This document shows, piece after piece, positions 46,148 to 64,000 of a stretch of 64,000 bases of DNA. Both the position numbers and the translations under genes were made by a program. The notes under the pieces were generated by a model. That model saw only the letters and a list, made by a program, of their open reading frames with translations, ran no database searches and had not been told where the DNA came from. The stretch's first letter is position 1; each line of letters starts with the position of its first letter. Origin of the DNA: Deltaproteobacteria bacterium HGW-Deltaproteobacteria-8. Its GTDB lineage: Bacteria; Desulfobacterota; Desulfovibrionia; Desulfovibrionales; Desulfovibrionaceae. Location: assembly GCA_002840405.1 (NCBI GenBank), contig PHAR01000001.1, forward strand, positions 392,320-456,319. Reading direction: 5' to 3'.

Positions 46148-46157
46148 ACATGATTTC

Positions 46158-46177
46158 TGGCGGAGAGGGAGGGATTC
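46158..46177 (-). tRNA. 3' end fragment of a tRNA-Ser gene: attachment site of the element
   Basis: The plus strand reads TGGCGGAGAGGGAGGGATTC, the complement of a T-arm end, acceptor strand CCTCTCC, G discriminator and CCA. These are typical of tRNA-Ser (5' acceptor GGAGAGG). The rest of the tRNA is absent: after GGGATTC the expected T-loop sequence stops. Such a 3' fragment is the usual trace of a tyrosine-recombinase element that integrated into the tRNA gene and rebuilt it at the other end. Confidence 0.8.
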
Positions 46178-46222
46178 TCGTCTGTGAACAAGAAATCCCT
46201 TTCCTTTCAGCTAGATATATTC

Positions 46223-46261
46223 ACTGTTCCTGAGCCAAATGTAACGCCTCACTGGAACAGT
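46223..46261. repeat. Inverted repeat next to the attachment site
   Basis: ACTGTTCC (46223-46230) and GGAACAGT (46254-46261) form an 8-bp inverted repeat with a 23-base spacer, 45 bases inside the element. It could be a recombinase or excisionase arm site, or the terminator-like end of the gene that stops at 46263. Confidence 0.4.
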
Positions 46262-46262
46262 T

Positions 46263-47081
46263 TCAAGTCTTTTCGTCATCCTTCTGCCTGGGCCTGGATA
46301 CCCAAGCCCTCGGGTAGGGGCGAGCGCCGGAGACCGCTGCCGCATCATGCTCACGCTTGAAGGCCTGGACGTCCGAGAGATGATGCTCCACCAGCAGCTC
46401 CACAGCCGACTCCAGCGACTCGCCTAGGTGCCGGAGGACGCGGCCACGGCTGCGCGGGTACACGTGCAGTTCTTGAACCTGAGCCTGCTTCTGGCCCGGC
46501 CAGACGGGCGAAAGCACTTCCCGCACCCAGCGCCGGTGCGACCCCGAGGCCATGCGATGGACCACCTTGGCTGCCTGGACGCGCTTGAACTCCGCTCCCT
46601 GGACGGGCTGAGGATCGTCCTGGATCAGCATCTCCACGGCCAGCCATGCCGCCAAGACAAGCCGAGGGTCGATGCCGTGCTTCCTGAGCCGCGCCAGGGC
46701 CGCCTTGGCCCGCTGCTGAGGAGGCAGGCCACGCAGGCGGAAGGCCTCCACGTATGGCCCGGCCTGCTGGTAGAGTCCCTTCACCCGCTGAATGGCGTTC
46801 TGCACCCACCGGCTGTCCTCGTGGGACACGATCCAGGCCAGGGCCGCCCGGCGGTAGGGGTTCAGCTCCTTGGCCGTGTATGACCCCTTGAGCGGGCTGC
46901 CATGCCGCTGATTGTGATCGGCATGGGCGCGGCAGTATCGCTCGTCCAGGCCGTCCGGAGTACCTGCCCTGGCGGGCTTGCCGCAGTGAATCACCCGGCA
47001 GTAGCCGTACATATGGTTGGGGAGGGCCGCACGGGCGGTCACGTCCTGCTTGCGCTTCTGGCGCTGGTTCCAGTCGGTCAT
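46263..47081 (-). CDS. Element protein with a Cys/His cluster, function unknown
   Basis: 272 residues. Near the N-terminus is a possible metal site, YGYCRVIHCGKPA followed by RYCRAHADHNQRHGS, which recalls HNH or zinc-ribbon proteins without matching one. The middle is helical (LAWIVSHEDSRWVQNAIQRV, ALARLRKHGIDPRLV). The C-terminal part is basic and predicted disordered. It is 67 bases downstream of the polymerase-like gene on the same strand, so they probably share a transcript that runs to the element's left end. The start ATG has only a weak ribosome site. A DNA-binding partner of the polymerase is a guess. Confidence 0.6.
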   Translation of the reverse strand: MTDWNQRQKRKQDVTARAALPNHMYGYCRVIHCGKPARAGTPDGLDERYCRAHADHNQRHGSPLKGSYTAKELNPYRRAALAWIVSHEDSRWVQNAIQRVKGLYQQAGPYVEAFRLRGLPPQQRAKAALARLRKHGIDPRLVLAAWLAVEMLIQDDPQPVQGAEFKRVQAAKVVHRMASGSHRRWVREVLSPVWPGQKQAQVQELHVYPRSRGRVLRHLGESLESAVELLVEHHLSDVQAFKREHDAAAVSGARPYPRAWVSRPRQKDDEKT

Positions 47082-47148
47082 GGCTTACGGGTCCCACTAA
47101 AGGAGATTGGTAGCCCCTCTAGGTACTGGTAGTTGTAGGTGATCATGG

Positions 47149-48534
47149 TCATCCTCCCACCACCTCCACTATCCCAGGTACTCCAGTTCCTTTGAGGAAG
47201 CAGGAGAGCATGACCTCCCTGACCTTGTCCTGGTTCGACTTCCCCACGATCACGGAGTCATGGACTGGAAGAGCAGGGATGCCCAGGTCTCGAAGGGTGA
47301 GAAGGACATCCACCAGCACCTGGCTCTCGGTGAACTGGGCCTCATGGCCGATCCCGGTGAAGAAGCAGCTCGTGATGGCCGGGTGGGTAGCCTCAATGGC
47401 GACCATGACCTCCTCCACCCGGTGCCGTTCCTCGAAGGCCTTGCGGACGCCCTTGGGCATCCTGACCAGCCGTTTGGTGGCGAACAGCATGGCGTTCATG
47501 ATCTTCTTCACCCCACTGCGGTGGTGCTGAAAGCCGGGAATGGCGTAGGCATCGCCCTCAGGCGGCTCCACACCGCAGAGGCCGTAGAGGATGCGGGGGT
47601 TCATCTGGCCGTAGTCCAACTCCACCACGTCCTCGCCGTTGATCATCAGGCCCTTCCGGCGTGCTTCCTTGCCCAGGGGCTGCCAGAACCCGCCGAACAG
47701 CCGTCCTCCGCTATCGAAACGTCCCTGTGTGAAGACGCGCCGCAGCCTCCGGTCCCGTGAATCAACGGGCCTGCCTCCTGGCCAGTAGTACTCGTCGAAG
47801 TCGATCTCCACGGACTCCAACCAGCCGTTGATGGTATTGACCTGCTCCCGGAACAGGATGGTCTCCGGGGTATCCTCGTACTCCTCAAGACCGCCGTCAT
47901 CCCAGCCGCCCTTCTTCACGCGCTTGAGCTGGATCACCTCCTGGCCTTTGGAGATGCCGAAGTCCCCAAGCTCAATCCCGGATTCCACGACTCGCGTGAT
48001 GAGCCGCTTGCCAGCGCGAATGGTCGTCTCCATTGCCGGGCCGAAAGGGTCGCCATGACCAAGTTCCATGTTCAGGAAAGCCATCTCCGGGGTCGCCAAG
48101 TGGTCCAGGATGGTCGGGAGGGTCTTGCCGTAGGCGTGGGGTCGGTAGCGGCTCTTGCAACCCAAGTAGCGGTTGGAGCGGGTGATGTAGACCCCGTGCC
48201 CATGCCCAAGGAGGTGGTGGTACATAAGGTCGGTGACGATGGCCGTAACAGTGGTCTCAAAGACCTCCTGGTCAGCCTTCCGACGCTTGCGCTTGCGGAG
48301 CTTGTAGAGCCGCTCGTAGCTCTGGAGTTGCTGGAGCACGTCGAGAATGACCCCCTGGACCTGTTCAGTGACAGGGATGCGCCAGGGGTTAAAACGCCTG
48401 TCCTGAAGCTTTTCGACTTCCTCGGCCCCCTCGACCAGATCCTCGAGCTGTTCTTTCAACCTCACCTCCCCGCACACAAAATGACCACCCCGCCACCGGT
48501 CAGCCGGGTGAGTCCGATAGATGAAAGAAGGCAC
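47149..48534 (-). CDS. Minimal family A-like (Pol I/T7 RNAP superfamily) polymerase
   Basis: 461 residues from a GTG start with a weak ribosome site. The N-terminal ~290 residues lack any exonuclease domain. The palm/fingers motifs follow: motif A VVELDYGQMNPR (Asp307), a motif B-like helix SGVKKIMNAMLFATKR (Lys343/344), and motif C ALPVHDSVIVG (Asp426). In Pol I motif A (DYSQIELR) the sixth position is the Glu that excludes ribonucleotides; here it is Asn312. Motif C is HDS as in T7 RNA polymerase rather than HDE. It might be a primer, repair or transcription enzyme of the element. It is divergent from the HTH gene across 158 bases. Confidence 0.75.
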   Translation of the reverse strand: MPSFIYRTHPADRWRGGHFVCGEVRLKEQLEDLVEGAEEVEKLQDRRFNPWRIPVTEQVQGVILDVLQQLQSYERLYKLRKRKRRKADQEVFETTVTAIVTDLMYHHLLGHGHGVYITRSNRYLGCKSRYRPHAYGKTLPTILDHLATPEMAFLNMELGHGDPFGPAMETTIRAGKRLITRVVESGIELGDFGISKGQEVIQLKRVKKGGWDDGGLEEYEDTPETILFREQVNTINGWLESVEIDFDEYYWPGGRPVDSRDRRLRRVFTQGRFDSGGRLFGGFWQPLGKEARRKGLMINGEDVVELDYGQMNPRILYGLCGVEPPEGDAYAIPGFQHHRSGVKKIMNAMLFATKRLVRMPKGVRKAFEERHRVEEVMVAIEATHPAITSCFFTGIGHEAQFTESQVLVDVLLTLRDLGIPALPVHDSVIVGKSNQDKVREVMLSCFLKGTGVPGIVEVVGG

Positions 48535-48587
48535 CTATGTCCAGAAGAACCACTTCGGTAGGCATTAAGCATAAACGCCAAAGGCAC

Positions 48588-48616
48588 TTGCAGCTCGTGC
48601 GCTCATAACCTATACC
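48588..48616 (+). promoter_or_regulatory. Sigma70-type promoter of the HTH gene
   Basis: TTGCAG (48588-48593) and TATACC (48611-48616) with a 17-base spacer, 77 bases before the start. It lies in the divergent region with the polymerase gene. Confidence 0.45.
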
Positions 48617-48692
48617 CCCCACTCCGGGCTGGATCGAACAGAGTAGCCCAAACCAGCATCTACATAAGCTGCAACACATTTCTGGAGATTCC

Positions 48693-49679
48693 ATGGAGCC
48701 GGAGAAGCTAGACACAAAGAAGTTCGCCAAAATCTACAGCCTGATGAACTCGACTACCTACGACGGCGAACGAGAAGCCGCGAGGGACAGGGCTGAGGCT
48801 GTCGCCTGTGCTGCGGGTATGACCTTCGATGAGGCGGTTGAGGTCATTTCTACACCTGACAAAGCAATGGCCGACGTTACACCTGCATGGAAGAATCCCT
48901 TCGAAGGCTTTGCCGACTATATGGAAGAACAAGAGCCGGGTTACAAGGCGCGAGCTGCTGAAGAGGCTCGGGTGAGAGAACTGGAACTGATGAAACAACG
49001 CGCTGATCTTGTCGAGCGTTACGGCTCTGAGGAAGCTGTCTTCACGGAATGTGACAAGGAAGCAATGCTTCTCAAGGCGTGTCAGCATCTGTCCGAGGTA
49101 GATGAAGGGTATGGATATGTGTCCAAATTGGACGGATGGGATATACTCTCAAGTGATGCGGACTTGCCGGATTCAGTCCGTCAGGCTGTTTCCCATGCCT
49201 ATGCCTTACCAACCTCTGTCATAGATGCCCTGGCAGAACGACGCTATTGGGGACAACGTGGAATGGAACGACAAACCTTCGATCGTGACTACGATTTCGT
49301 GCTGCCAGTTAGAGCGCGGCTAGTAGTCCTTGAAGAGTTAATTATGTCGCTGCCCGCTCAAAGCATTGAAGACGTCTTGGCTCGGCTAGATAATTACGAA
49401 GAGCTTTGCCATCAAGGTTTTGACTTGGAGATTACAGTCCAGGACAACTTCATCAAACAGTTCCGCAACGACATTGGCTTCCTGTCCAACGGCGTCCAAG
49501 TTGGACGTCAAGCTCCATTCACCAACGCGAAGAAAAGGGACGCTGTTCTGGAGTACCTCAAGTGTCCCGAGCGGTCCCTGCTCTCAGACCGCGAGATTGC
49601 CCGTATTGTTGGTGTTTCGCCGCAGACCGTGAACAACTGGCGCAAGCGGCTCAACGTCCAATTTGGACACCGCCAATAG
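48693..49679 (+). CDS. Element protein with C-terminal helix-turn-helix
   Basis: 328 residues; TGGAGATTCC precedes the ATG. Residues ~25-50 (AARDRAEAVACAAGMTFDEAV) resemble the head of DUF2786-like proteins, the middle is acidic and helical, and the last ~35 residues form a HTH (LLSDREIARIVGVSPQTVNNWRKRL), likely DNA-binding. I cannot name the family. The coding sequence carries three of the five GTCCAANTTGGAC palindromes of the element, the last overlapping the codons just before the stop. An autoregulator or partition-like role is possible. It is followed by a 77-codon gene after 28 bases. Confidence 0.65.
   Translation: MEPEKLDTKKFAKIYSLMNSTTYDGEREAARDRAEAVACAAGMTFDEAVEVISTPDKAMADVTPAWKNPFEGFADYMEEQEPGYKARAAEEARVRELELMKQRADLVERYGSEEAVFTECDKEAMLLKACQHLSEVDEGYGYVSKLDGWDILSSDADLPDSVRQAVSHAYALPTSVIDALAERRYWGQRGMERQTFDRDYDFVLPVRARLVVLEELIMSLPAQSIEDVLARLDNYEELCHQGFDLEITVQDNFIKQFRNDIGFLSNGVQVGRQAPFTNAKKRDAVLEYLKCPERSLLSDREIARIVGVSPQTVNNWRKRLNVQFGHRQ
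49121..49133. promoter_or_regulatory. GTCCAANTTGGAC palindrome, copy 1
   Basis: GTCCAAATTGGAC inside the HTH gene, encoding SKLD there. Confidence 0.6.
49494..49506. promoter_or_regulatory. GTCCAANTTGGAC palindrome, copy 2
   Basis: GTCCAAGTTGGAC inside the HTH gene, read in a different codon phase from copy 1 (VQVG). Confidence 0.6.
49656..49668. promoter_or_regulatory. GTCCAANTTGGAC palindrome, copy 3
   Basis: GTCCAATTTGGAC at the 3' end of the HTH gene (VQFG), nine bases before its stop codon. Confidence 0.6.
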
Positions 49680-49707
49680 CCCTCCGACCTAGACGCAGGA
49701 GATTCAC

Positions 49708-49941
49708 ATGTACGAGATCGGTTTCTGGGGCCGCCCAGGTCACCCGGATGGAGCAAGGCACATAATCGTCACCCTGAATGGTGAGCGCCTGACATACTGC
49801 GGGGCGCATAAAATGCTCGAGCCAGACGTAGAATTCACCCAGGTTGCCAATGGGCTGATCGAAGAAGAGGTGACCTGCGGACACTGCAAGAGGATTCTGA
49901 ACACACCCACACTACGCTTGAAGCACTTGGGCGAGAAATAA
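49708..49941 (+). CDS. Small zinc-ribbon-like protein
   Basis: 77 residues with a GGAG ribosome site. Cys/His pairs YCGAHK and TCGHCK could hold a zinc ion (Cys31, His34, Cys57, Cys60). No known family. It is co-oriented with the HTH gene, 28 bases after it, and probably in the same transcript. Confidence 0.6.
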   Translation: MYEIGFWGRPGHPDGARHIIVTLNGERLTYCGAHKMLEPDVEFTQVANGLIEEEVTCGHCKRILNTPTLRLKHLGEK

Positions 49942-50027
49942 GATGTCGTAATTGATGACGTGTCACAACGAGAGCAGTCGAAGAGCAAGCTAAATGTCCA
50001 GCCACCGTCATGGCGGCGAGGTGAAGA

Positions 50028-50582
50028 CTACTGTTTCTGCGTATCTCGAGTGAGGATTTTGGCGGCAATCACTGTTGGATCATTCTCATAACCCTCGTCC
50101 GCAAAAGCCATCACACATAACTTTATTTCCTCTGGGGAAATATACCGCCACCCACTATTCCTCATAACCATTTCGACATCTTTACTTTTCCCTTGGTATA
50201 CTTTCCCGGCAGCAAGTCCAAGTGTGAAAATGGTCTTAGAATTCGCCATGCCACGAAGCATAAGCTCTTGGCGCAAACGTCCGAAGACTACTTCACGATA
50301 CCTTTCAGATGTAAACAACTTGTATCTGCCTTTTGGAACATCATGCTTTTCCGATATATCCTTGAGCTTGACGCCGGGAGAGTCCAGATACGACTTTACT
50401 TCAAACACTATAATCTCATTTTTTGCAGCACAATATGCGAGAAGATCCAACTCAACGCGAGGCATGCAAGGCAAGCCGATACTTCTCTTATCCTCTATCG
50501 TCAGCTCAACCTTAAATGATCTATTTACCCAATAGCCTTCAAATTCCAGCAACGTTGCCACAACGCCTTCAAAATAATCCAT
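50028..50582 (-). CDS. PD-(D/E)XK nuclease-like protein, AT-rich
   Basis: 184 residues; GGAGAGGATA precedes the ATG. The core RVELDLLAYCAAKNEIIVFEVKSY has the D...EVK spacing of PD-(D/E)XK nucleases (Asp near 45, Glu-Val-Lys near 61-63), with a helix before it. The rest matches no restriction family that I know. Base composition is clearly more AT-rich than its neighbours, suggesting separate acquisition. It is the last gene of the leftward defence operon, 70 bases after the DUF262 gene. Confidence 0.65.
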   Translation of the reverse strand: MDYFEGVVATLLEFEGYWVNRSFKVELTIEDKRSIGLPCMPRVELDLLAYCAAKNEIIVFEVKSYLDSPGVKLKDISEKHDVPKGRYKLFTSERYREVVFGRLRQELMLRGMANSKTIFTLGLAAGKVYQGKSKDVEMVMRNSGWRYISPEEIKLCVMAFADEGYENDPTVIAAKILTRDTQKQ

Positions 50583-50652
50583 TATCCTCTCCCAGAATCC
50601 ATTTTCTAAACCGTACGCGACCTCTACACTCGCAATCTACACCCCAAACCCG

Positions 50653-52446
50653 TCACAACACATTGTAGTACGCCTTGATCTTCTGCGCCATCAGCTCCCG
50701 CCGCGTCTTGAGGAACTCCGCGTAATCCCCCTGCTCGAGATCGAGCGATGCGCCGGGGATACAATTCTGGATCAGGTTATTCTCCAGCTCAGCTCGGTCA
50801 TCAATGCCTCCCAGCTTGAGCGGCCCATCCGCGCACTGCGCCAATGCCTCGGCGAAGTAGGCCTTGGGGGCCTTGTTGCCGATCCGGATGTTGATCTCCG
50901 ACTGGGTGAACACGAAGTTGGCGATCTGGTTGTACGCTCCCTGCTTCATGCCAAACTTCTTGAGGTAGTCACGCGGGAAGATGTGGTGGATGTCGCCCTG
51001 GTGAGCGATGAGCTGCCCCACTGTGATGTCCCTCGACAGGAACCCACGGTCCTCCAGCTTCACCTGAGCGGCCCAGAACAGGTTCAGGTACGGACTGTTC
51101 GTGCTAGCCTTCTCCAACTCCTGCACCAAGCCAAAGCTCCAGAACGACTCAGACAGCACGGCCTGCTCCGTCTGGGCCAGAAACTCGCTGAAGTCCCCTT
51201 CCTTGGCGCGTTTGATGTCCGAGTCGAACTGACTTTCGAAGGAACCGGAATAGCGGGCGGTGAGCAGCGAGAGGACGAACCAGCGTCTCACCGTGCGTTC
51301 GATGACTGCCGGGTCATACTTGTCTCGGCGGAGCTTCAGATACAACGCATACGCGAAGTTCAGGGCGTTCTGAGACCGGATGAGGCCAGGGGCTATGAAC
51401 CCGGCGGAGCGGATGATCATGAGGAAGCGCTGGAAATGCGTTTCCTTGATGAAGTCCATGATGCCCTCGCCCAGGCGCACGAACGACTCAGCGGCGATCT
51501 CGTCCTCATACTGGCGAGTCTCGAAGTTCCTGCCCGAGAGTAGGCTCACAAGGTCCGACAGTTTGCCACGCTCGAAGGCCGCGATGCAGGCCACGCGGAG
51601 CATATCCGTGTAGGACGGGTCATAGAGATCGTCATTCTCGTCCTTGAGCCAAGCCATCTTCTTGAACCAGTCCGTGGCCGCGAACTCAGGATCGCGCTCA
51701 GCGATCTGTCCATAGAACTCTGGCGCCACAGCCATGTGGCAGAAGTAGTCGATGGCCTTGCGCAGCATCGGCCCGCCGTGGCTCTCGCTGGCGGCGATCT
51801 TTGACATGGCGAAGTCCGACTGGTTCAGCACCACGCCCTTGGAGTTGATGCGGATGAAGATGTCCGTAACCGTCTCAATGTCCAGGTCGTGCGCCAGCTC
51901 CACAAAGCCGATCAGGTTGTTCCGGATGGCCAGCAGGTCCGTGATGGACTGCATGACCTGCTCCTGGTCCACCGTTGGATTCTGGGCGCAGTAAGCCTTG
52001 AACACGGTGAACGGGTTGGCCGCGTTCTTCATGGCCTCGGAGATGTCCGGAATCCACGTCACGTCCTTCTCGATGGCCGGGTTCAAGACCTCAAACTTTC
52101 GGCTCAGCGGGTTGAAGGCGATGCGGATGCGGGTGAGCCTGTAGTCCTTGGTGAGGACCTGATAGCCCAGCACTGCGGCCATCAGGGCAGTGACGCGCTG
52201 CTGTCCGTCGATGAGAACCTTCTTGCCCTCGCTCAGGGAGCCGTCCCGCAGCCGCACGCTGGGGTTGCGCCATGCGATGAGGTAGCCCACGGGGTAGCCC
52301 TGGAACAGGGAGTCCAACAGATCACGGACGTTGGTGGCGTCCCAGACGAAGGGGCGCTGAATCTCGGGGATGGCTATTTCCCCGGCCTTGACCCAGGACA
52401 GGATGGTCTCAACGGGGTGGCTGTTGACTGAATAGCAGGGGGGCAT
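50653..52446 (-). CDS. DUF262-DUF1524 (GmrSD-type) nuclease
   Basis: 597 residues. The N-terminal DUF262 (ParB/Srx-like) domain has [11 protein letters not shown] and the nucleotide-site motif [15 protein letters not shown]. The C-terminal DUF1524 domain is an HNH nuclease ([12 protein letters not shown], with [14 protein letters not shown]). In GmrSD enzymes this pair cuts phage DNA bearing modified cytosines in an NTP-dependent way. Here both domains are in one chain. It lies nine bases after the zinc-finger gene, so they are co-transcribed. Confidence 0.88.
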
Positions 52447-52455
52447 TGGCGATCC

Positions 52456-53481
52456 TCAATTGGTTTTGAGTTGTACTTTTGCTGACGAAGGACGTTTGGG
52501 GCAGCGCTCGGCCTGATGCACAGCAAATCGAGAATATTTGACCTTTGAACCACACCACGGGCAAATCACCTTCCCCTGCCAAACAGGCAGATCCACCTGC
52601 TGTGGGCCTGAGGTGGCGGCCTCATTTGGATCAGGTTGTTTTTGAGCTGTTGGTGTTGGACGGTTCGGACAGATGCCTGCCTTGTGTTCTTTCAAGTGCG
52701 CGGCCTTAACCGCCCCTTTGCACTGCGGGCAGATCTCCAGCCCTGGCCCAAGCTGCAATGACGGTATGGGCTTGGCCATCATCTCAGCCAGTTGCTGGGC
52801 CTTCACTGCAAGAGCTTTCACCTCGGCTCTCCTCGAGCAGCGTTTCCGTATGTGGCTGTCCAATTTGGACGCCGAGACCTCGCAGTGGCAGAACGGACAG
52901 ACAGTCAATCCCTCTATAAGCGGAGCCTTTGTTTTCCCTATGGCCCGTGTGGCTGGAAGTGTCGGTGTCGGCCCGCGCTTCTGAAATGTGTGCAGGGCCG
53001 GTGTCTTCAGGTACCCGGCTATGCCACCCACGAAGTCATTCACGTAGATCGCTTGCGCCCCGAAAATCAGCTTGCCCTGTGTGCCATGGCCATAACCAGA
53101 GTAGGTGTCCCCGCGATAATTGGCCACCGAGCCACGCACAATGGAGGTCAGCTCCCCGGCCAGCCTCTCCCATGACTGTACAGGCACGGGCAAGGCCTGC
53201 TGGTGCTGAATCCACTGCCGGATGCACTGGCAGCAACCGTGGACCGCCGCTGAGACCAGAAACGAGTTTGCCCCGAACTCGACCGACCAGTTCCTCTCGC
53301 TCCCCTCGATCCGGTCAGAATGCTTTGGCGCACGGACAGGCCCAGAGGGATGGGACTCCCACCATGCACTGCCCGCGACAAGATTGTCGGCAACATGGCG
53401 CGGGACCCTGCCATCGCGGCTGCAAACCTCATCAAGACGTTTGAGCAACTCGTCACGCCAAGGTTTCAGTTTATCAGCCAT
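52456..53481 (-). CDS. Protein with three zinc-finger-like units
   Basis: 341 residues from the ATG preceded by GGAGG (the frame extends 12 codons further upstream). Residues ~1-185 form a globular unit with no match (VSAAVHGCCQCIRQWIQ, FGAQAIYVNDFVGGIAGYL). Three CxxC-x(10-12)-H-x(3-5)-C units follow: CPFCHCEVSASKLDSHIRKRC, CPQCKGAVKAAHLKEHKAGIC and CPWCGSKVKYSRFAVHQAERC, separated by linkers. They look like tandem C2HC fingers, so DNA or protein binding is likely. It sits between the methylase (56 bases upstream) and the DUF262 gene. Confidence 0.7.
   Translation of the reverse strand: MADKLKPWRDELLKRLDEVCSRDGRVPRHVADNLVAGSAWWESHPSGPVRAPKHSDRIEGSERNWSVEFGANSFLVSAAVHGCCQCIRQWIQHQQALPVPVQSWERLAGELTSIVRGSVANYRGDTYSGYGHGTQGKLIFGAQAIYVNDFVGGIAGYLKTPALHTFQKRGPTPTLPATRAIGKTKAPLIEGLTVCPFCHCEVSASKLDSHIRKRCSRRAEVKALAVKAQQLAEMMAKPIPSLQLGPGLEICPQCKGAVKAAHLKEHKAGICPNRPTPTAQKQPDPNEAATSGPQQVDLPVWQGKVICPWCGSKVKYSRFAVHQAERCPKRPSSAKVQLKTN
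52858..52870. promoter_or_regulatory. GTCCAANTTGGAC palindrome, copy 4
   Basis: GTCCAATTTGGAC inside the zinc-finger gene (SKLD on the minus strand). Confidence 0.6.
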
Positions 53482-53537
53482 ATCCCCTCCAACAGGCAGC
53501 AAGACCACCCAGAGCACTGAACCGAAGCCAATGCCCT

Positions 53538-56500: not shown

Positions 56501-57776
56501 CGTAAATGCTGCCTAGCTCCTCTGCGCCGAGGTTTTTGAAGTCTACCGGGCGCAGGCCCTCTGGCCCGCTAATGGTGGCCAGATGACGAACTGCGGAGAG
56601 CAACGCCTCGTTGCTGATGCGGCAGGCTTCAATGTCGGGCATGGCAGCGTTGGAAAAGAGCATGCTGCCAAGCGGGGCCAGTCCAAGCTCCTGGCAGCCC
56701 TCATCGCTGCCCAGGCGCTGCATGACGAGGCGCAGGCTCTCGTAGATGTCATCGTGACGACTGCCACGCAGGGTGGCGGCCAGACGGCGCAGACGGGCCG
56801 TGGAATAGAACTTGAGGAACACCTCCGCCTGTTCGGACGACGGGTCCTTGTGCAGCAAGCCCCGGTCCTCGGAGACGAAGAGGAACAGCAGGCGGTAGAT
56901 CAAGCGGAGCAACTGGCGGAAGTAATCTTGCTTGTCCAAGCCCCCGGAACGGAGCTTTTCCCGCATGTCCAAGTTGGACTGGTGTGCCAGGAAGCCAGCA
57001 CCGAGTTCGTTGATAGCGGCCTCCACACCATTGCGGAGATGCTCCAGCACGCGGGAGCCGATGTCTCGAGCGGCCTTGGACCACTGCTCAAGGAAACAAT
57101 CCTCTGGCCTATCTGCTTCCACACGAGACTGGTGGCACACTAGCCACAGGAGGCGGAAGTCCGGATAGACCTGGCCTTCCATCATGGCCTCGAGGTCGAA
57201 CTCAACATAGGCCTGACGGGTGAAGCTGATGTTGTCGCGCAGGATGCGCAGCTTGAGGCCATTGGTCACAAAGGCCCAGAGGTGGTCGTCTGAGCGGTTC
57301 AGAAGTTCCTGAACCAACCCATGAGGCGCGGCGACAGTAGCGCCCTGAATGCCTTTGGTCTTCTTGTCCAGCGGGACGTTGCAGCCGAGCAGATGGATGG
57401 GCGTGCTGCCCCAGCCATGAGAGATGGAATAAGGTTTCCCGCCCAGCTCAAGGGCCTTGGCTCCCAGCAAGCGGCCATAGCCCAGTTCGTTGAAGAGGGG
57501 CAGGAGCCACTTCTCGCGGGTCTCGGAGGTGCCGGGCTTGTCTCCGGGGATCGCATCGCGGGCGGCCTTGAAGCTGCCCCAGGCGGCCAGCAGCCTGTTC
57601 CAGGCGCGGTTGGTGGCCTCGGAGGGCTTCTCCCCGCCTGTGAGGTGGTAGGCTTCAGGTGTGAGGCCGGGAAGTGCCTGATCCAGGTCCGCAACCCGCT
57701 GGAGGATGTCCGGGGGCAGGGCCGAGCCTTCGGTGGTGACGGTGGCGAAGATGTCGCGGGACTTCTTGATGATCAT
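53538..57776 (-). CDS. Large Eco57I-type adenine-specific DNA methylase, DrmMI-like
   Basis: 1,412 residues; GGAGG lies six bases before the ATG, which overlaps the stop of the helicase gene (ATGA). The methyltransferase domain has motif I VCDPACGSGHFLLAAANRMA (~490) and motif IV DVILGNPPWERIK (~780), with the Eco57I spacer (RCIYGVDLNPMAVELCKVNLWLE) between. The N-terminal ~480 residues and C-terminal ~350 probably read DNA and contact partners. This size and architecture match DISARM class 1 DrmMI (N6-adenine). There is no nuclease motif, so cutting would be done by another subunit. Confidence 0.85.
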   Translation of the reverse strand: MIIKKSRDIFATVTTEGSALPPDILQRVADLDQALPGLTPEAYHLTGGEKPSEATNRAWNRLLAAWGSFKAARDAIPGDKPGTSETREKWLLPLFNELGYGRLLGAKALELGGKPYSISHGWGSTPIHLLGCNVPLDKKTKGIQGATVAAPHGLVQELLNRSDDHLWAFVTNGLKLRILRDNISFTRQAYVEFDLEAMMEGQVYPDFRLLWLVCHQSRVEADRPEDCFLEQWSKAARDIGSRVLEHLRNGVEAAINELGAGFLAHQSNLDMREKLRSGGLDKQDYFRQLLRLIYRLLFLFVSEDRGLLHKDPSSEQAEVFLKFYSTARLRRLAATLRGSRHDDIYESLRLVMQRLGSDEGCQELGLAPLGSMLFSNAAMPDIEACRISNEALLSAVRHLATISGPEGLRPVDFKNLGAEELGSIYESLLELHPNMDDGFKLETAAGHERKTTGSYYTPESLIQSLLDTALDPVLAEARKAANPEQAILDLKVCDPACGSGHFLLAAANRMAKALAAARTGEDEPAPEAVREAKRAIISRCIYGVDLNPMAVELCKVNLWLESMDPGKPLSFLDSHVQCGNSLLGTTPALLRAGIPDEAFSPIEGDEKERCQAAKKSNKEQRKDHAARLKRSGLMPYAEEPFIQLGNLAESVQAFMRVDDSTIEGVRERQRMWESLASGSGYRFGRMWADAWCAAFVWKKIKAPAGEAFYPITEDVFRRIEKNPFNIPDWMQKEIERLSGQYQLFHWHLAFPEVFRIPSKGKAPENQQAGWSGGFDVILGNPPWERIKMQEKEWFADKRPDIANARNASERQRLIHDLAQSDPDLLNAFNEDKRKAEGESHLLRNSSRYPLCGRGDINTYTIFTELGRAVLSSVGRLGCIVPSGIASDDTTKFFFQDISECRSLVSLYDFENKNLFPAVDSRMKFCLLTLTGADRPAKGGADFAFFLHDVAEIREEDRRFKLTAEDIALINPNTRTCPTFRSKRDAEITKGIYRRMPVLIREATEKNPEENPWGLRFSAMFHMSNDSGLFKYRQNLETKGWSLYGNRLVKDGERCLPLYEAKMIHHYDHRWATYEPDGCIRDVTLAEKQDPDFVIIPRYWVHEWEVAKRASRCPEVVIKALADAEPHYTEEDRKRVASALVQWLAGYYLNHGNEELGNKLLAATQNRMASLLASTTEWMAAKNMEEATPLSLEEADQIKRALTGDVFAEGRELVLKRTPACFLGWRDICRSTDERTVITSLLPKAGVGNNLPIMISSNQESLDVLAATLSSFALDFSARFKVGGTHVNFFIANQLPVPAPGQFQTPTPWEVHESLQDWIQTRARALYASDHQMSELLTVTYQPRSPEERFAIRCELDAAFFHLYGITREDVDYIMDTFPIVKRKDEAAFGCYRTKEMILEKYDEMAEAMPGSA
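56967..56979. promoter_or_regulatory. GTCCAANTTGGAC palindrome, copy 5
   Basis: GTCCAAGTTGGAC inside the methylase gene (SNLD on the minus strand). A half site GTCCAAG is 30 bases away. Confidence 0.6.
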
Positions 57777-60622
57777 GCGGCACCTCCCGCCTGCCGGGGA
57801 ACTGGCATGAAGACGTAGAGGCCCAGCACGTCAGGTGGAAGCTGCGGCTCGATGCTGTAGGAAACGCCTTTGTGGCGGCTCTCTGTGCGGACGCGCCTGT
57901 GGGCGGCCAGCAGCTCGTCCCCCCGGCTCATGGCGATCTTCTCCAACTCGGGCCAGACGGCACCGAAGCCTTCGAGGATGGGCGTGAGAAAGCCCCTGGC
58001 AGTGTCGGGCGGCACGCTGGCATCAGGTATCGTCAGCAGCAGCTTCTCGGCCTCCGCCTCAGGAATCCAAGTCATTGCATCAGGAGACCCTTCAAAACCC
58101 AGCAGGCGGCAGTCCTCAGCCAAGAGCGGCGTCTCGACCCCATCCTTGCGCGTGATGATGTGGTAGCGGAACCGCACCATCAGGATTGTGGTGCGAGTCG
58201 TCACCGCCCTGGTGCGGATGGCTCCACAGCGTTTGGCCACGCCTTCCTGGATGGGATCAAGCGCCGTGTCCATGATGAAAGCAGCCAAACTCTCCACGAA
58301 GTTGTGTGTGCGATGTAGGTAGGTCTCATCGTCCTGCACAGGCATGGCGAACCGGGCCTTGAGGGTATTGCCAGTGGGAAGCGTATCCTTGAGCGCCTGC
58401 GGCGTGCCTCGCAAGTCAACGCTCAGGCTGGGGCCTGCCATGGAGACGATAGCTCCCAAGGCCTGGAGGGCCTCACGAGTGAAGCGCTCCACTTCCACGC
58501 CAGAGCCGATGGCTGAACGCATGGCATCCAGCTCCTTGGCCACCTCTTCGGTCTTGATGGCCTCCTGAGCAAACATGGTGCGGGTTCTCTTTTCCCGCTG
58601 GGAGGCATTCTCCCACTCGGCATACAGGGCATCGGCTTTGGGTTTGATGAGTTCCTCAATGCCCGGCAGGAAGAGGCTACGCTGCCCTTGAGATTGGGCC
58701 GCACCGCCACGGAGCAGCAAGCCCTCAAAGATGGCCTGGACCACAGCGTCACTCTCGACTGGAACCGGAACGGAAATGCCAAGGTCGTTCTTGATGTTCT
58801 TGTGCTTCTTGATGAGGACGTCGATGATGAAGCCGTCGATTTGATTATCGACGCCGAAATACGTCAGGATGCGAACGACAGGCTTGGGCTGGCCAAAGCG
58901 GTCCACACGGCCTTCCCGCTGCTCATGGCGAGTCGGGTTCCACGACAAGTCATAGTGGATGACAGCATCGAAATGTTCTTGGAGGTTGATGCCTTCACTG
59001 AGGCAGTCGGTGCAGACGAGGACCCGCTTGGGAGCCTTGGACAGGGCGAGAACACGCTCCTCGCGTTCCGCCGGTGGCAGCATGCCCGTGACCGAGTCAA
59101 CCTCGACGCCATTGAGCTTCCGTCCAAACTCATCTGCCACGTAGTCCGCCGTTGGGATGAAGCGACAGAACACGATGGGATGGAACCCCTCGTCCAGCAG
59201 CTTCTTCACCTCGGACAGAATCGTCTTCAGCTTCTGGTCCTCAGCTCCCAAAAGGGCATCAGCCTCGCGGGCCATCTGCAAGAGCCGCCTGCGCACCTGA
59301 ACGTTCTCATCATCCACATAGACATCGCTGCCTGGGGCCACGTCCAGGGCATCACCACCCTCTTCGTCCATCAGGTCCAGCACCGTCTGCCGCCCAAGCT
59401 GGTCAGCTTCTTCAGCGCTCTCTGTGTCCGCAACGCTGGCACGACTGCGAAGCGTGGCAGCAGCAGCGGCAGGGCTGGAGGCCAAGGACCTCAGCAGGCC
59501 CAACACAGACCACCAGCGGACCCGCTGTCTGTGCCTGCCTTCCTCCGCCCCAGCCTGGACAGTCTCGCGGGCATATTCCAGCACCTTGTCGAAAAGCTTC
59601 TTGTAGTTCGGCGACAAGCGGTACTGGAGTTCTCGTTCTTCCCTGTCTGGGAAGGGGGTATCTGTTGAGAGAAAGTGTTTGATATCAGCGCGTTTCCGCT
59701 GAATGAAGTGGGCCGCCAACTTGCGCCGGTTCTGTTCTTGCGCAGGGCCAGCAAGGTCTTCTGGCAAGTCTTTGAAATCCGGATTGAGCAGTGACAAGAG
59801 CGAACGGAACGCGACATCCTTGCCGCTATGTGGCGTGGCCGTCACCAAAACCATGTGTTGATCGGGCTTGTCTGCTAGGTCCTTAATGAGCCGGTGGCGC
59901 TGATGGCGGACACCTCGCCCTTCTCCGCTCCATGCGCAGGTGTGGGCCTCATCGATGATGACCAGTTCCGGGCAGGTCCGGAGGAACTCATCCCGGCGGT
60001 GGTCGGTTTTAATGTAGTCCAGGGAGACCACAGAATAGGGATACCGCTCAAACAAGGACTCGCCGGGCCTGCAATGCCTTTCCAGACTCCTCGCGGTGGA
60101 GGGCAGAATCAGCACGACTTCAATGTTGAATTTATCCCTCAGCTCACCCTGCCACTGCTCAGCAAGGTGCGGAGGACAAAGGACTGCGAGCCGTTGGACC
60201 TCTCCACGATCCAGAAGTTCCCTGGCGATGAGGGAAGCCTCAATGGTTTTCCCGATGCCTACGTCGTCTGACACCAGGATGCGGACCGGATCGAGCTTGA
60301 GGGCCATGAGCAGCGGCACAAGCTGGTATGGGCGCGGCTCCACGGCAATCTTGCCAAAAGAACGGAACGGACCTGCACTGGAACGGAACCCCAGGCGCAC
60401 CGCGTCTCGCAGCAATCTGGACGTGATGAAATCACCGGGCTTGCTGGGATCTGGTGGATCAAACTGGGCTGGCCCAACAGGTTCCAGGCCAGGGTGAACT
60501 CCAGCGATCTCCTTGTCCGTTCCTCCAAGAGGCCTCAGGACCAACAATTCGTCCGAGGACTCGGGGAGCACCACCCACTCCCGATTCCTGGCCTTAACGA
60601 GTGAACCTACGGCGTAGCTCAT
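57773..60622 (-). CDS. SNF2-type helicase, DrmD-like
   Basis: 949 residues from the ATG that overlaps the upstream stop (ATGA). It has Walker A SDDVGIGKTIEA (~120), IDEAH (~224), a helicase C domain ending in HYDLSWNPTRHEQREGRVDRFGQ (~560-580) and the SNF2 spacing between. DrmD of DISARM class 1 is the same size and also neighbours the adenine methylase. The C-terminal ~300 residues are helical and without a known fold. ATP-driven translocation along phage DNA is the expected activity. Confidence 0.85.
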   Translation of the reverse strand: MSYAVGSLVKARNREWVVLPESSDELLVLRPLGGTDKEIAGVHPGLEPVGPAQFDPPDPSKPGDFITSRLLRDAVRLGFRSSAGPFRSFGKIAVEPRPYQLVPLLMALKLDPVRILVSDDVGIGKTIEASLIARELLDRGEVQRLAVLCPPHLAEQWQGELRDKFNIEVVLILPSTARSLERHCRPGESLFERYPYSVVSLDYIKTDHRRDEFLRTCPELVIIDEAHTCAWSGEGRGVRHQRHRLIKDLADKPDQHMVLVTATPHSGKDVAFRSLLSLLNPDFKDLPEDLAGPAQEQNRRKLAAHFIQRKRADIKHFLSTDTPFPDREERELQYRLSPNYKKLFDKVLEYARETVQAGAEEGRHRQRVRWWSVLGLLRSLASSPAAAAATLRSRASVADTESAEEADQLGRQTVLDLMDEEGGDALDVAPGSDVYVDDENVQVRRRLLQMAREADALLGAEDQKLKTILSEVKKLLDEGFHPIVFCRFIPTADYVADEFGRKLNGVEVDSVTGMLPPAEREERVLALSKAPKRVLVCTDCLSEGINLQEHFDAVIHYDLSWNPTRHEQREGRVDRFGQPKPVVRILTYFGVDNQIDGFIIDVLIKKHKNIKNDLGISVPVPVESDAVVQAIFEGLLLRGGAAQSQGQRSLFLPGIEELIKPKADALYAEWENASQREKRTRTMFAQEAIKTEEVAKELDAMRSAIGSGVEVERFTREALQALGAIVSMAGPSLSVDLRGTPQALKDTLPTGNTLKARFAMPVQDDETYLHRTHNFVESLAAFIMDTALDPIQEGVAKRCGAIRTRAVTTRTTILMVRFRYHIITRKDGVETPLLAEDCRLLGFEGSPDAMTWIPEAEAEKLLLTIPDASVPPDTARGFLTPILEGFGAVWPELEKIAMSRGDELLAAHRRVRTESRHKGVSYSIEPQLPPDVLGLYVFMPVPRQAGGAA

Positions 60623-63600
60623 TTGATCTTCCCAAAGATGGATTGGTGGTTCGAGATGATGCCTGCCCACTTGGAAACATCGCTAGAGAAACGGATGACC
60701 AGATAACCGGCGTTGGCAAGACAAGCCTCTTGCGTGGCGTCTTTGGCCTGAACATCGGAATGGGTGTGTACATGACCATCAATGTAGATGAGCGCACCAT
60801 GATTCTCATAGAAGAAATCAGGCTGGGTGTGGCATTCCGGGATGCTGTGCTGGGCATGGCTGGGCAGCTTGAGGCCTCTCGCCTCCAGGAACTCGAGCCA
60901 ATCCCGTTCAAGCTTATCCCCTGCCAGCTTGAGAAGATCATCCAGGTGCTTCTCCCTCGGCTTGGGGCCAGGAGATGAGGACACAGTCGCCTGGGCCAAA
61001 TCCATGAGGAAGTCCTTTACCAACTGCCGGTCAAGCAGCCCATGGTCCCTCTGGTTGGCATAATTCAGCAGGCAGTCATAGCAGGCCGCCTCGCAGTCCT
61101 CCGAGGCTCCAGGAGGCCGTCTCCTGTCTTCGCCAGTGTCCGGATCGAAGTGACAAATCTCCAATGCCAGCCGAGCCACTTCAGCAAGATCCTGAGGCCC
61201 GTCAAGAAGTCTGCGGAGCACTCCTGCCCCACCTTCTGCTGATTCGTAGAAGAGGATGGTCCGCCTGTCGGTGGGTTTTGGCAGCGGTTCTGCGGCCAAC
61301 TCCATGCTTTCAAGCTGGAACTTGATCTCTATGGCTCTCTTGAGGGCCGCCTGGAGCGCCGCCATGAACTCAATGTTCAAAGCTCTTTTCGGCTCCAGGA
61401 TCAGGCTGTTGCGCCTATCCGCCACGTAGGGGATGACCCGTTGGGTATTGCTGGTCATCGGATCGGTGTCGTCATCGTCTTGATCGGCGTTATTCTTGGA
61501 CCACAGCCCCTTATCCATATCCAGTACAAAGCCGTGCTCGTCCTTGTTCTTGCGCCTGCTCCATCCCATGTTGATGCGCCACAGGGTTGCTCCATGGCCG
61601 TAGGTCAAGCTGGCGACCTCTCCCTTGTCGCCACTGACGCTCCCGTGCCTGAACGTCGGTGTACCGTCCTGTTCATCAAATCGAACCGTGGTAACCAAGT
61701 CGAACCCGTAGCGCATCCGCTCTTCTTCATCGGAGTTGATCTTGTCCCGCCTCCGTGTGGCCACGTTCTGCATACGGAAGAGCGGGCCAAGGGGGAGGTT
61801 CAAAGGATTCTCGCACTGCTCGCACAAGTCTGGGCCACCCGTGTCCGGACAGTTGTGGAGGTAACCGCAAATGGGGCAAATCTTCGCCTTGGTCAGCAAC
61901 GGCTCCTCTTCGCTCACCGGCATGATGACCTTGTGGATCACGTATCTGGCCCCTTCATGGTAGAGCACAGCCCTCGGCCCAAACTCCGAAATGGCAAGGA
62001 ACCTGGGGCGTGAGAGGTACTCGTCCCGCTGCTTGGTCTTACGAGCGGGGATGAAGGCCGAGAGTGGCAACCTGGGGAAGTTGTACCCCGGCAGGAAACC
62101 CTCGCTGGCGAAATAGCGATAGCAGTAGAAATCAGACTGCTGGATGCTGTCCACGTCCGTCAACAGGGCAAGCTGTGATTCAGCCTCTTGCCGCTGACGC
62201 TTGGCCCGCGCCTTTTCATCGTGCGACCTCGTGGCGTCGCGAATGACTGCGTCCTGCTCGTGCGCCTGAGCCAGTGCTGAACGATAGAGGCCACGCCAAC
62301 GATCACAGGCCTGGTTGAACCTCTTCCCGACATGGGCAAAAACTCCGTCCAGCCACTTGTCATCGTACCAGTCCACCAAACTCAGATCGCCCTTGATGGT
62401 CGCCAGCACCTCTTTCGCTCGAGTCAAAGCTCGCTTCTTCGGATCAGTGGCAGTGAGCTTCTCCAAAACAGAGGGCAGAAAAGGATACTGCTGCTGGTCA
62501 CTACCAAGGTCCAGGATGTCCCTGAGTGATTTCTTGAGGTCGAGGTCCGACTCCGCAAGCCAAATGGCCTGCATGTGAGCGCGGACAAGGTCTTCATTCG
62601 TCAAGTCCAGCCGGGGCGGAGTGACGCTTCCCGCCACCATTTTCGTCGGGCGCTTGAAGAAATACTGATCGTGGGGACTACCCGTGGTGCAGTAGGTGAA
62701 CACCAGCGCGGGCTGTCCACCTCTGCCAGCACGGCCACTCCGCTGAGCATAGTTCGCGGGTGTAGGCGGCACATTCCTGAGGTTCACCACGTTCAAGTCC
62801 GAGATGTCGATACCAAGTTCCATTGTCGGGGAGCAGAAGAGGATGGGGAGCCGTGCCTTGCGGAATGCCTCCTCTCGCTCCTCGCGGAGAGAGTATGGCA
62901 CCTGGGCCGTATGCTCTCTGGCGGTATACCCCTTCAGGCCGAACGCCACGAACTTGTAGAAATCAACAAAGAAAGGGTTGGTACGGAGACCAGTATCCGA
63001 GATGTGCGGCACCCTGATTGGATCGTGGTATGCCTGAGAGCCATCACCAGCTTTCCAGACGATGGCAGCAGCACGGAGCTGGAACCCAGGAACTTCATCC
63101 GGCTTCCTGGGAGGCCTGACAACTTCAAGCAGACCACCCTCTGTCAGGATGGTCAGGAGGTTGGCAAAAATCCCCGACAGCTCACCCATCTTGATCCGTT
63201 CAGAATACGCTGGGAACGTATTCTTGCGCCCCAGGAATTGGCCGAAGCCGCCACGTGGAGAAAGGTAAACGTAGCCCTGGTATTCTTTTGGGCGAATCCC
63301 TCTGGGGTACAAGACGGCGGCATGCTCCATCTTCTTCTTCTCGGCCTCATCCAATCCCCAAGGCTCGATCAGGTACTGGTAGCTCTGCTGCTGGATGGCT
63401 TCTTGGTGGGCGCTGTCGAGATAGTCCACCTTCACGGCCAGATTCCGTCTGAAGTAGTCCAGCAGGACCTTGCAGACATGTATCCTGGTAGCGACATCCG
63501 CCGAAGAAAGCGCCGCATGGCAGCCTCCCCAGGCCGTGGCATTACCGCAGATGGACGACAAGGCGGGGTAATCGATCCCGAGAAGCCCGCATTGCTCCAG

Positions 63601-64000
63601 GTTCGGGGATGTCACGCGCCAACCACGCTTGAGGTCGTTGTACAAGCGATACCCGAGGACATTGCGTAAGGCCTTCCCCGCATTGATCAACTGGATTTCC
63701 GATGCTTCCCCAGTCAGGGTCGAATACTCCTCAGGATCAAGCCCCAAAGCGTTGAAGACTCGAGGGGCCAATTCATCATGGGAGATGCCATCTGGCCCAG
63801 CGTCCAAAGCAGCGCGATAGAGCGCAGAACGGAGCATGCTGACTTCGATAAAATCGTTGAAGTGGCCAGCCTGAAGGGAAGCGTCCTGCCGGTTGTCGGT
63901 GAAACTGAGGAGCTTTTTGGCTTCATCCTCCAGGTCAGCTTCCGCTCGCAGGAGCTTGACGGTGGACAACCCGAGGACTGTTGTCGCAGTACTGCGACCA
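60619..64000 (-). CDS. YprA-type helicase fused to DUF1998 and a C-terminal nuclease (5' end outside the window)
   Basis: About 1,126 codons are visible and the frame is open to the window edge, so the N-terminal part with Walker A and B is missing. In order: helicase domain 2 (KLLSFTDNRQDASLQAGHF, LFCSPTMELGIDISDLNVV, YAQRSGRAGRGG), a long insert with a zinc pair (CPICG ... CEQC), the DUF1998/MZB domain (YESAEGGAGVLRRLL, CEAACYDCLLNY), and a C-terminal Vsr/DUF559-like nuclease (PDFFYENHGALIYIDGH and a later Lys, GYLVIRFSSD). DISARM splits the helicase (DrmA) and DUF1998 (DrmB) and carries a PLD nuclease (DrmC). Here one chain may do all three. It heads the operon. Confidence 0.85.
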   Translation of the reverse strand, partial: GRSTATTVLGLSTVKLLRAEADLEDEAKKLLSFTDNRQDASLQAGHFNDFIEVSMLRSALYRAALDAGPDGISHDELAPRVFNALGLDPEEYSTLTGEASEIQLINAGKALRNVLGYRLYNDLKRGWRVTSPNLEQCGLLGIDYPALSSICGNATAWGGCHAALSSADVATRIHVCKVLLDYFRRNLAVKVDYLDSAHQEAIQQQSYQYLIEPWGLDEAEKKKMEHAAVLYPRGIRPKEYQGYVYLSPRGGFGQFLGRKNTFPAYSERIKMGELSGIFANLLTILTEGGLLEVVRPPRKPDEVPGFQLRAAAIVWKAGDGSQAYHDPIRVPHISDTGLRTNPFFVDFYKFVAFGLKGYTAREHTAQVPYSLREEREEAFRKARLPILFCSPTMELGIDISDLNVVNLRNVPPTPANYAQRSGRAGRGGQPALVFTYCTTGSPHDQYFFKRPTKMVAGSVTPPRLDLTNEDLVRAHMQAIWLAESDLDLKKSLRDILDLGSDQQQYPFLPSVLEKLTATDPKKRALTRAKEVLATIKGDLSLVDWYDDKWLDGVFAHVGKRFNQACDRWRGLYRSALAQAHEQDAVIRDATRSHDEKARAKRQRQEAESQLALLTDVDSIQQSDFYCYRYFASEGFLPGYNFPRLPLSAFIPARKTKQRDEYLSRPRFLAISEFGPRAVLYHEGARYVIHKVIMPVSEEEPLLTKAKICPICGYLHNCPDTGGPDLCEQCENPLNLPLGPLFRMQNVATRRRDKINSDEEERMRYGFDLVTTVRFDEQDGTPTFRHGSVSGDKGEVASLTYGHGATLWRINMGWSRRKNKDEHGFVLDMDKGLWSKNNADQDDDDTDPMTSNTQRVIPYVADRRNSLILEPKRALNIEFMAALQAALKRAIEIKFQLESMELAAEPLPKPTDRRTILFYESAEGGAGVLRRLLDGPQDLAEVARLALEICHFDPDTGEDRRRPPGASEDCEAACYDCLLNYANQRDHGLLDRQLVKDFLMDLAQATVSSSPGPKPREKHLDDLLKLAGDKLERDWLEFLEARGLKLPSHAQHSIPECHTQPDFFYENHGALIYIDGHVHTHSDVQAKDATQEACLANAGYLVIRFSSDVSKWAGIISNHQSIFGKIK

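Follow-up and report, generated by a model that had tools for sequence, protein, structure and literature searches.

A TV-Pol-like minimal polymerase with an asparagine at the steric-gate position in a tRNA-bounded mobile element of a Desulfovibrionaceae bacterium

The stretch of 64,000 nucleotides analysed here (the window) belongs to contig PHAR01000001.1 of Deltaproteobacteria bacterium HGW-Deltaproteobacteria-8, and contains part of an element of 23,106 bp located between 22-bp att repeats in tRNA-Ser(GCT). The features of this element are listed below in window numbering, which is continued outside the window for positions above 64,000.

46156..46177: left att repeat (22 bp), same sequence as the tRNA-Ser(GCT) 3′ end
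46263..47081, minus strand: c12, a conserved neighbour of 272 aa, directly downstream of the polymerase gene
47149..48534, minus strand: TV-Pol-type minimal polymerase, 461 codons, GTG start
Polymerase residues about 44-190: separate N-terminal region, possibly winged-helix
Polymerase residues about 199-461: predicted palm and fingers, with R278, E305, D307, N312 (gate), D328, R339, K343, F351 and H425-D426-S427
48693..49679, plus strand: protein of 328 aa with a C-terminal helix-turn-helix, divergent from the polymerase gene
50028..50582, minus strand: cargo protein of 184 aa, no confident family
50653..52446, minus strand: cargo, GmrSD/DUF262-type protein
52456..53517, minus strand: cargo, zinc-finger-like protein of 353 aa
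53538..57776, minus strand: cargo, DrmMI / Eco57I-like DNA methyltransferase
57773..60670, minus strand: cargo, SNF2-type helicase, DpdE/DrmD-like
60619..64000 and on to 65802 outside the window, minus strand: cargo, large helicase, DruE-like in the scanned part (60619-63999)
65912-66628: serine recombinase (Resolvase, E 1.4e-24)
66693-67442: protein of 249 aa
67387-69174: tyrosine integrase (DUF6538, E 8e-17; Phage_integrase, E 9e-6, just under the cut-off)
69264-69357: tRNA-Ser(GCT)
69262-69283 (L266:5582-5603), outside the window: right att repeat

From the tRNA inward, the genes thus follow one another as tyrosine integrase, 249-aa protein, serine recombinase, two large helicases, methyltransferase, the zinc-finger-like, DUF262, 184-aa and helix-turn-helix proteins, polymerase and c12. 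The G+C content is 57-61% in 4-kb blocks of the element and 61-68% outside. Two genomes of the same genus display the empty site, on which the joined flanks of the element align in one stretch (268 nt at 84% in G053, 249 nt at 78% in G273), and each occupied end matches these empty sites up to the repeat only; G053 gave no polymerase match in the profile search of the class genomes. The boundary that the initial annotation had described as the edge of an island is therefore real, but it corresponds exactly to the distal end of a tRNA-bounded mobile element rather than to a mere edge.

Divergent from the polymerase gene, the 328-aa helix-turn-helix protein is a probable regulator of the element, and the same protein cluster adjoins the polymerase in three close relatives. 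The defence-like cluster at 50653-65802 draws its best PADLOC matches from several different systems, and the elements of G185 and G150 encode proteins that match it in length and order. Among the genes of the window element, none was recognised as dedicated to replication, and a Pfam search of eight window proteins, a set that excludes the two large helicases, found no match to a D5/COG3378 or DUF927 replicative helicase. Iteron-like repeats were absent from positions 48400-48800. A 16-bp perfect inverted repeat (49119-49134 and 49655-49670, 520 nt apart) is present inside the helix-turn-helix gene, with each arm being itself near-palindromic (GTCCAAATTGGAC) and operator-like.

The polymerase ORF is intact over the interval first annotated. 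Its motif A is ELDYGQMNPRILY, with the core ELDYGQMNPR, and is preceded by a hairpin, GGRLFG; its motif C is PVHDS, and between the two lies RSGVKK, an RxxxK motif (R339 and K343), with D328 as the fingers Asp. The hairpin, D328 and RxxxK come in addition to the motifs listed in the initial annotation. The protein matches a single family significantly, PHROG 4756 (E 2.5e-28), whose function is listed as unknown. Neither DNA_pol_A (PF00476) nor RNA_pol was matched in Pfam (to E 1 for PF00476), no exonuclease or other domain was found in Pfam (to E 1) or NCBIfam (to E 0.01), and PADLOC returned zero matches. Compared with Pol I, the protein has N312 instead of the Glu gate and no exonuclease domain by Pfam, the latter as the initial annotation had proposed. 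Residues 1-43 are modelled with low confidence by AlphaFold2, so that the true start codon may lie downstream of the annotated GTG.

Relatives of the polymerase were found at E 0.001 or better in 34 of 297 genomes of the host's class, the window's genome included. A phylum sample gave 5 of 247 genomes, two of them from the window's family; phage records gave 9 of 50,697, among which two phages are each represented by a pair of records, and plasmid records 3 of 72,556. One motif-based scan of IMG/VR yielded 74 viral loci, and a pattern scan of genome contigs gave three matches, two of which are labelled Humidesulfovibrio. Two alignments were used: A1, with 31 sequences including the window's, was selected independently of motifs A and C; A2, with 57 sequences, contains 53 viral members retrieved by the motif C pattern, i.e. 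53 of the 74 IMG/VR loci after short or duplicate loci were left out. The bacterial set consists of 43 ORFs at 41 loci, the short matches G133:C114 and G185:C19 being left out. All 57 members of A2 match PHROG 4756 (best E 5e-99), which is a phage-protein family whose description does not extend to the setting of bacterial elements. A literature search returned no paper naming PHROG 4756, and the parts seen of a 2026 survey of bacterial polymerases (PMC12926913), which distinguishes three major and one minor family A groups, do not include this one.

All 31 sequences of A1 have R278, R339 and K343, and conservation reaches at least 90% at D307, H425, D426 and S427. Each catalytic Asp (D307 and D426) is kept in 41/43 bacterial ORFs and both are present throughout A2 (n = 57), hence in nearly all homologues. 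The hairpin R278 is found in 42/43 bacterial ORFs and 57/57 A2 members, R339 and K343 in 42/43 bacterial ORFs each, and D328 in 56/57 A2 members and 37/43 bacterial ORFs. Judging from these alignments, the conservation of the polymerase motifs is far beyond chance. Note that the conservation of HDS in A2 is circular, as its viral members were retrieved by the motif C pattern. In G161 the polymerase gene is split into two ORFs, each missing one catalytic motif, and in G193 (L131:7850-10800) two copies lie in tandem, the second intact and the first with Gly and Glu in place of both catalytic Asp; this Asp-less copy is possibly a dead partner. The HDS motif noted at first as a T7 RNA polymerase-like trait is indeed present, but being general in the family it is not a sign of an RNA polymerase.

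Neither single-sequence nor profile searches found a polymerase among the sequences of solved structures; the relationship was detected by fold comparison only. An AlphaFold2 model built with a 57-sequence alignment (pLDDT 86.5, pTM 0.84) has both a predicted palm and predicted fingers, with a helix at residues 223-240 ahead of the hairpin. The 50 best solved matches in Foldseek are all family A DNA polymerases. With VIA-align, the apicoplast polymerase (Z 14.2, rmsd 3.5, 235 aligned), the yeast mitochondrial RNA polymerase (Z 14.0, rmsd 3.3, 244 aligned) and T7 RNA polymerase (Z 13.7, rmsd 3.3, 239 aligned) score level, so the fold does not discriminate between a DNA and an RNA polymerase; the structurally matched part is mostly residues 195-461. 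Motifs and predicted fold agree in placing the protein, as a minimal polymerase, in the superfamily of family A and T7 RNA polymerases, in support of the first reading of this gene. That reading would have been contradicted by losses of the catalytic Asp among homologues or by a fold lacking palm and fingers; nearly all homologues keep the Asp, and the model has both subdomains. For the N-terminal region, MarR/PadR-type regulators were matched weakly (best E 0.23) in profile searches against solved-structure sequences, and weak helix-turn-helix or MarR Pfam matches occur in one or two members of A1 and A2; we tentatively consider it a winged-helix domain.

Profile-profile alignments with Pol I were weak (E 0.013 and 0.0015, HH probability 3.5% and 17%) but in register: in both of them motif A falls on ADYSQIELRIL of Pol I, which puts N312 at the Glu710 position and agrees with the initial proposal that the Asn of DYGQMNPR replaces the gate Glu. 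With a T7-type RNA polymerase profile, the alignment (E 0.014) was out of register, and the known relationship between Pol I and T7 RNA polymerase scored worse in the same comparison (E 0.29). Since the alignments are weak and this control is worse, we draw from them a residue register and no branching order. PF00476 is absent among the Pfam families listed for the relatives (25 of 38 for the 57 sequences, 23 for the 31); RNA_pol (PF00940) is the only polymerase family among those listed (25 of 38 for A2), with weak matches in 3/57 A2 members (best E 0.011) and 1/31 A1 members (E 0.1).

The steric gate was considered together with position 351, which corresponds to Pol I Tyr766 and T7 RNA polymerase Tyr639; in the T7 enzyme, Gly542 and Tyr639 occupy the gate and aromatic positions. 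In Klenow, replacing the steric-gate Glu admits ribonucleotides. The gate is His in 45 of the 57 A2 members. At 312/351, 30 of the 43 bacterial ORFs carry the pair His/Asn, always without c12, and nine carry a small residue with Phe (gate N in six, G, T and A in one each), with c12 present at 9/9; the single pairs Cys/Cys, His/Phe and Asn/Asn all come without c12, and one split-gene ORF is unreadable at these positions. A tree of this family only (97 of 128 rows, gappy and identical rows being left out, columns 312 and 351 excluded) groups the window clade in 10 rows with an SH-aLRT of 100. The window, L007 and L010, all small/Phe, are within this fork, as is the Cys/Cys row; outside it, the odd pairs are Gln/Asn, Phe/Asn, Trp/Asn, Ser/Asn, His/Phe, His/Ser and Asn/Asn. 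On these pair counts and this tree, the gate Asn is clade-specific, being one of the residues found at a position that is relaxed in a derived clade, and is not a signature of the family. The Asn first noted at the gate is thus present in the window, but His is usual in the family and N, G, T or A marks one derived clade.

The c12 protein that accompanies the small gate has a Cys/His-rich start (C28, C33, C50 and H53), and its structural model is unusable (pLDDT 37). Its only library matches are sub-threshold (UBA_7 in Pfam, E 0.19; HNH endonuclease, E 0.052), no match was found in PADLOC or NCBIfam, and one pattern-based scan gave no viral relatives. Conservation is higher for c12 than for the polymerase, with 69% versus 53% in G220 and 61% versus 50% in G089, which fits a functional partner without proving one. 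As a lead, its Cys/His pattern may resemble a Zn-binding domain mentioned by Iyer et al. (PMC2579912).

Could the protein be a T7-type, element-specific RNA polymerase with promoters of its own, from which it transcribes genes of the element or of phages? Such an enzyme would account for the small gate (N/G/T/A) with an aromatic residue at the Tyr639/Tyr766 position, as in T7 RNA polymerase, for the structural tie with the mitochondrial and T7 enzymes and for PF00940 being the sole polymerase family among the Pfam families listed, though weak. However, the gate in most of the family is His, not small, in the profile alignments Pol I scores better (E 0.0015) and is in register, T7-type RNA polymerase scores less well (E 0.014) and is out of register, and no motif above three copies was found in 46156-52460, a partial test for promoters. 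We consider this reading improbable.

We compared 41 stretches of 3.5 to 57 kb around family members, the window included. Some dependence between these loci has to be allowed for, and the profiles used to find integrases and serine recombinases were derived from those same clusters of neighbours. A tyrosine integrase is present at 34/41 loci, within 5 kb at 27/41, and a serine recombinase at 28/41; several of the seven loci without an integrase are on short contigs. With 505 Phage_integrase matches in 130.7 Mb of 36 genomes, about 4% of the loci are expected to have an integrase within 5 kb, and the observed 27/41 corresponds to a binomial P of about 3e-27, to be read with the incomplete independence of the loci. 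This background may be somewhat undercounted, as the window's own integrase falls just under the Pfam cut-off. For thirteen elements of 8.0-23.3 kb, the limits are given by repeats of a tRNA 3′ end, 18-49 bp long (tRNA-Ser, Leu, Ala, Arg and SeC), a repeat between two tRNA-Met copies in G102 not being counted as an element end. An integrase is found between the repeats of 13/13 and a serine recombinase in 12/13. In 20 proteins from ten bounded elements, a subset of their proteins, Pfam detected no replicative helicase. Pol I is present in 12 of 13 own or related genomes, and the host genome has a single Pol I match.

Between elements the polymerase is constant and the cargo variable. A 12.1-kb tRNA-Leu element in G195 (L130:1834-14042) holds Cas9 and Cas1 with the polymerase, the integrase and the serine recombinase; an 18.8-kb element in G220 holds Cas3 and the Cas7-type CT1975 (L273:15993-18665, L122:1915-3084) with the polymerase between tRNA-Ser repeats, and a Bro-N/KilAC neighbour (L122). 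Elsewhere, the cargo comprises BrxC/D with a DEAD helicase and TerB (G071), type I restriction R, M and S (G147b), a FokI-like protein (G273) or AbiEii (G017). The location of the window polymerase next to methyltransferase, helicase and DUF262 genes might suggest that it is itself defence cargo, making DNA upon infection as some defence reverse transcriptases do. This is very improbable given that the polymerase persists while the cargo around it changes (Cas9, Cas3/Cas7, BrxC-like, type I restriction, AbiEii), that the 8-kb G075 element has it with no defence gene recognised by eye, two of its proteins being outside the scan, and that it also occurs in phages and has no PADLOC match.

Of the 25 phage records with the family, which may be fragments, 14 also match a family A DNA polymerase (13 over the cut-off) and one has a T7-type RNA polymerase. 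In many phages the protein therefore comes on top of another polymerase: it is not their main replicase, it does not replace a T7 RNA polymerase, and it must do something additional there. Three phage contigs of ~89-93 kb have two polymerase copies each (L070/L096, L087/L103 and L090/L105), and a family A DNA polymerase is matched in every one of them as well. One record, L176 (behind L079), combines a family A DNA polymerase, a T7-type RNA polymerase and the TV-Pol-type polymerase.

The TV-Pols described by Iyer, Abhiman and Aravind (2008, PMC2579912) have a minimal core with a hairpin Arg, two Asp, a fingers Asp and RxxxK, lack nuclease links, and show a two-helix coiled-coil thumb and, in a subset, an extra N-terminal domain. 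Their neighbours are gamma-delta resolvase, lambda-type integrase, Bro-N/KilA and restriction-modification genes, in mobile elements and phages, and they were predicted to have primase and polymerase activity in mobile elements (PMC2579912). The window family likewise has two palm Asp, the hairpin Arg, the fingers Asp with RxxxK and no nuclease domain, and lies next to an integrase (34/41), a serine recombinase (28/41) and, in L122, Bro-N/KilAC. By motifs, neighbours and mobile setting, the window polymerase fits the TV-Pols. It differs by the small (N/G/T/A) plus Phe pair of its clade and by the 272-aa neighbour, neither of which is mentioned in the main text of PMC2579912. The initial annotation knew of no described function for such a protein; both the family and a predicted function had in fact been published (PMC2579912). 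Its idea of an intermediate between DNA and RNA polymerases comes close to what that paper had itself proposed, and its suggestion of primase activity holds as a candidate, TV-Pols being predicted primase-polymerases.

Direct sequence comparison with a named TV-Pol covered Microcystis phage Ma-LMM01. There, a whole-record profile search found no relative; when most ORFs of the record were compared, gp030, located beside transposases, gave marginal E values with two profiles (0.07 and 0.56). It beat 549/549 reported shuffles with A2, 533/534 with a combined profile and 466/517 with A1, and it shares D....H, K...L...N and an HD but is without the Arg of RxxxK. We took gp030 as the putative TV-Pol of this phage.

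CCPol, counted among the TV-Pols by Iyer et al. (PMC2579912), is according to Bebel et al. (2020) the only TV-Pol biochemically characterised to their knowledge (PMC7581432). With its partner MP, the SCCmec enzyme is a demonstrated DNA primase-polymerase that makes DNA primers de novo (PMC7581432, PMC10061031); without MP it only extends primers (PMC10061031). In CCPol-MP as in the window system, a family A polymerase encoded by a mobile element is accompanied by another small protein, by site-specific recombinases and by cargo of the defence type. Unlike the window polymerase, CCPol keeps the equivalents of Glu710 and Phe762 and, in its model, part of the 3′-5′ exonuclease; its partner is an OB-fold protein followed by a helicase, whereas in the window element c12 adjoins the polymerase and no replicative helicase was recognised. 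As CCPol keeps Glu and Phe, its biochemistry may not carry over to the window family. The PolA-SSB primase examples given in the parts seen of these papers are all from Bacillota, mostly with serine recombinases (PMC7581432, PMC10061031). At the level of the whole element, pipolins (PMC7385651) are the nearest parallel, sharing with the window element tRNA att repeats, a tyrosine recombinase, a self-encoded hallmark polymerase and variable cargo with restriction-modification; their piPolB is however of family B, and no serine recombinase is named in the part of PMC7385651 seen. The window polymerase is not of family B, its structural matches being of the family A / T7 type.

Overall, the motifs, the predicted fold, the element ends, the empty sites and the recurrent association with integrase and serine recombinase are directly established, and from there we infer excision, priming, copying and a partner role for c12. 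The polymerase would probably be a TV-Pol-type enzyme of a tRNA-integrated element that starts and copies the element's own DNA. The integrase would excise the 23-kb element in circular form; the N-terminal region of the polymerase, or c12, would recruit the enzyme to the element's single-stranded or origin DNA; the family A palm would start a primer and then extend it, the element being copied before re-integration; and the serine recombinase may resolve the copies. Against this reading, no iteron-like repeats were found at 48400-48800, and none of the window element's genes was recognised as a replicative helicase, whereas CCPol-MP and D5-linked TV-Pols have one. The helicase point also serves the competing view that the protein is a primer-dependent DNA polymerase filling gaps or extending ends at excision or integration, with no priming or replication, as does the mere primer extension by CCPol alone (PMC10061031). 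Such a gap filler is rather unlikely, considering the presence of c12 at 9/9 loci with a small gate and Phe. Moreover, tyrosine recombinases leave no gaps to be filled.

Within the favoured reading of an enzyme that starts and copies the element's DNA, the open gate of the window clade may admit ribonucleotides, in which case primers could be RNA or mixed. A bolder possibility, which we regard as doubtful though worth stating, is that this clade represents a new primase design, an open-gate TV-Pol laying RNA or mixed primers, with chain starts enabled by a zinc-binding c12. If true, it would be a second, independently built, NTP-using family A primase in tRNA-hopping defence islands, its zinc-binding c12 being unrelated to the OB-fold partner of CCPol, and it would offer a natural test of a DNA polymerase active site turning toward RNA synthesis.

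This kind of polymerase is already described, having been predicted in 2008, and the window branch of it has an unusual active site. Added here are the exact element ends in the host's relatives, the cargo pattern, the covariation of the gate and position 351 with c12, and the clade-specificity of the Asn. One polymerase-recombinase module carries changing anti-phage systems, including Cas9 and Cas3-type CRISPR genes, as pipolins do with another polymerase family. The group combines compact elements, whose ends are exact and whose empty sites have been observed, with natural His/Asn versus small/Phe variation at the residues choosing between DNA and RNA building blocks, and with these the long-standing proposal of a TV-Pol-like primase/polymerase as predecessor of Pol I and T7 RNA polymerase becomes testable.
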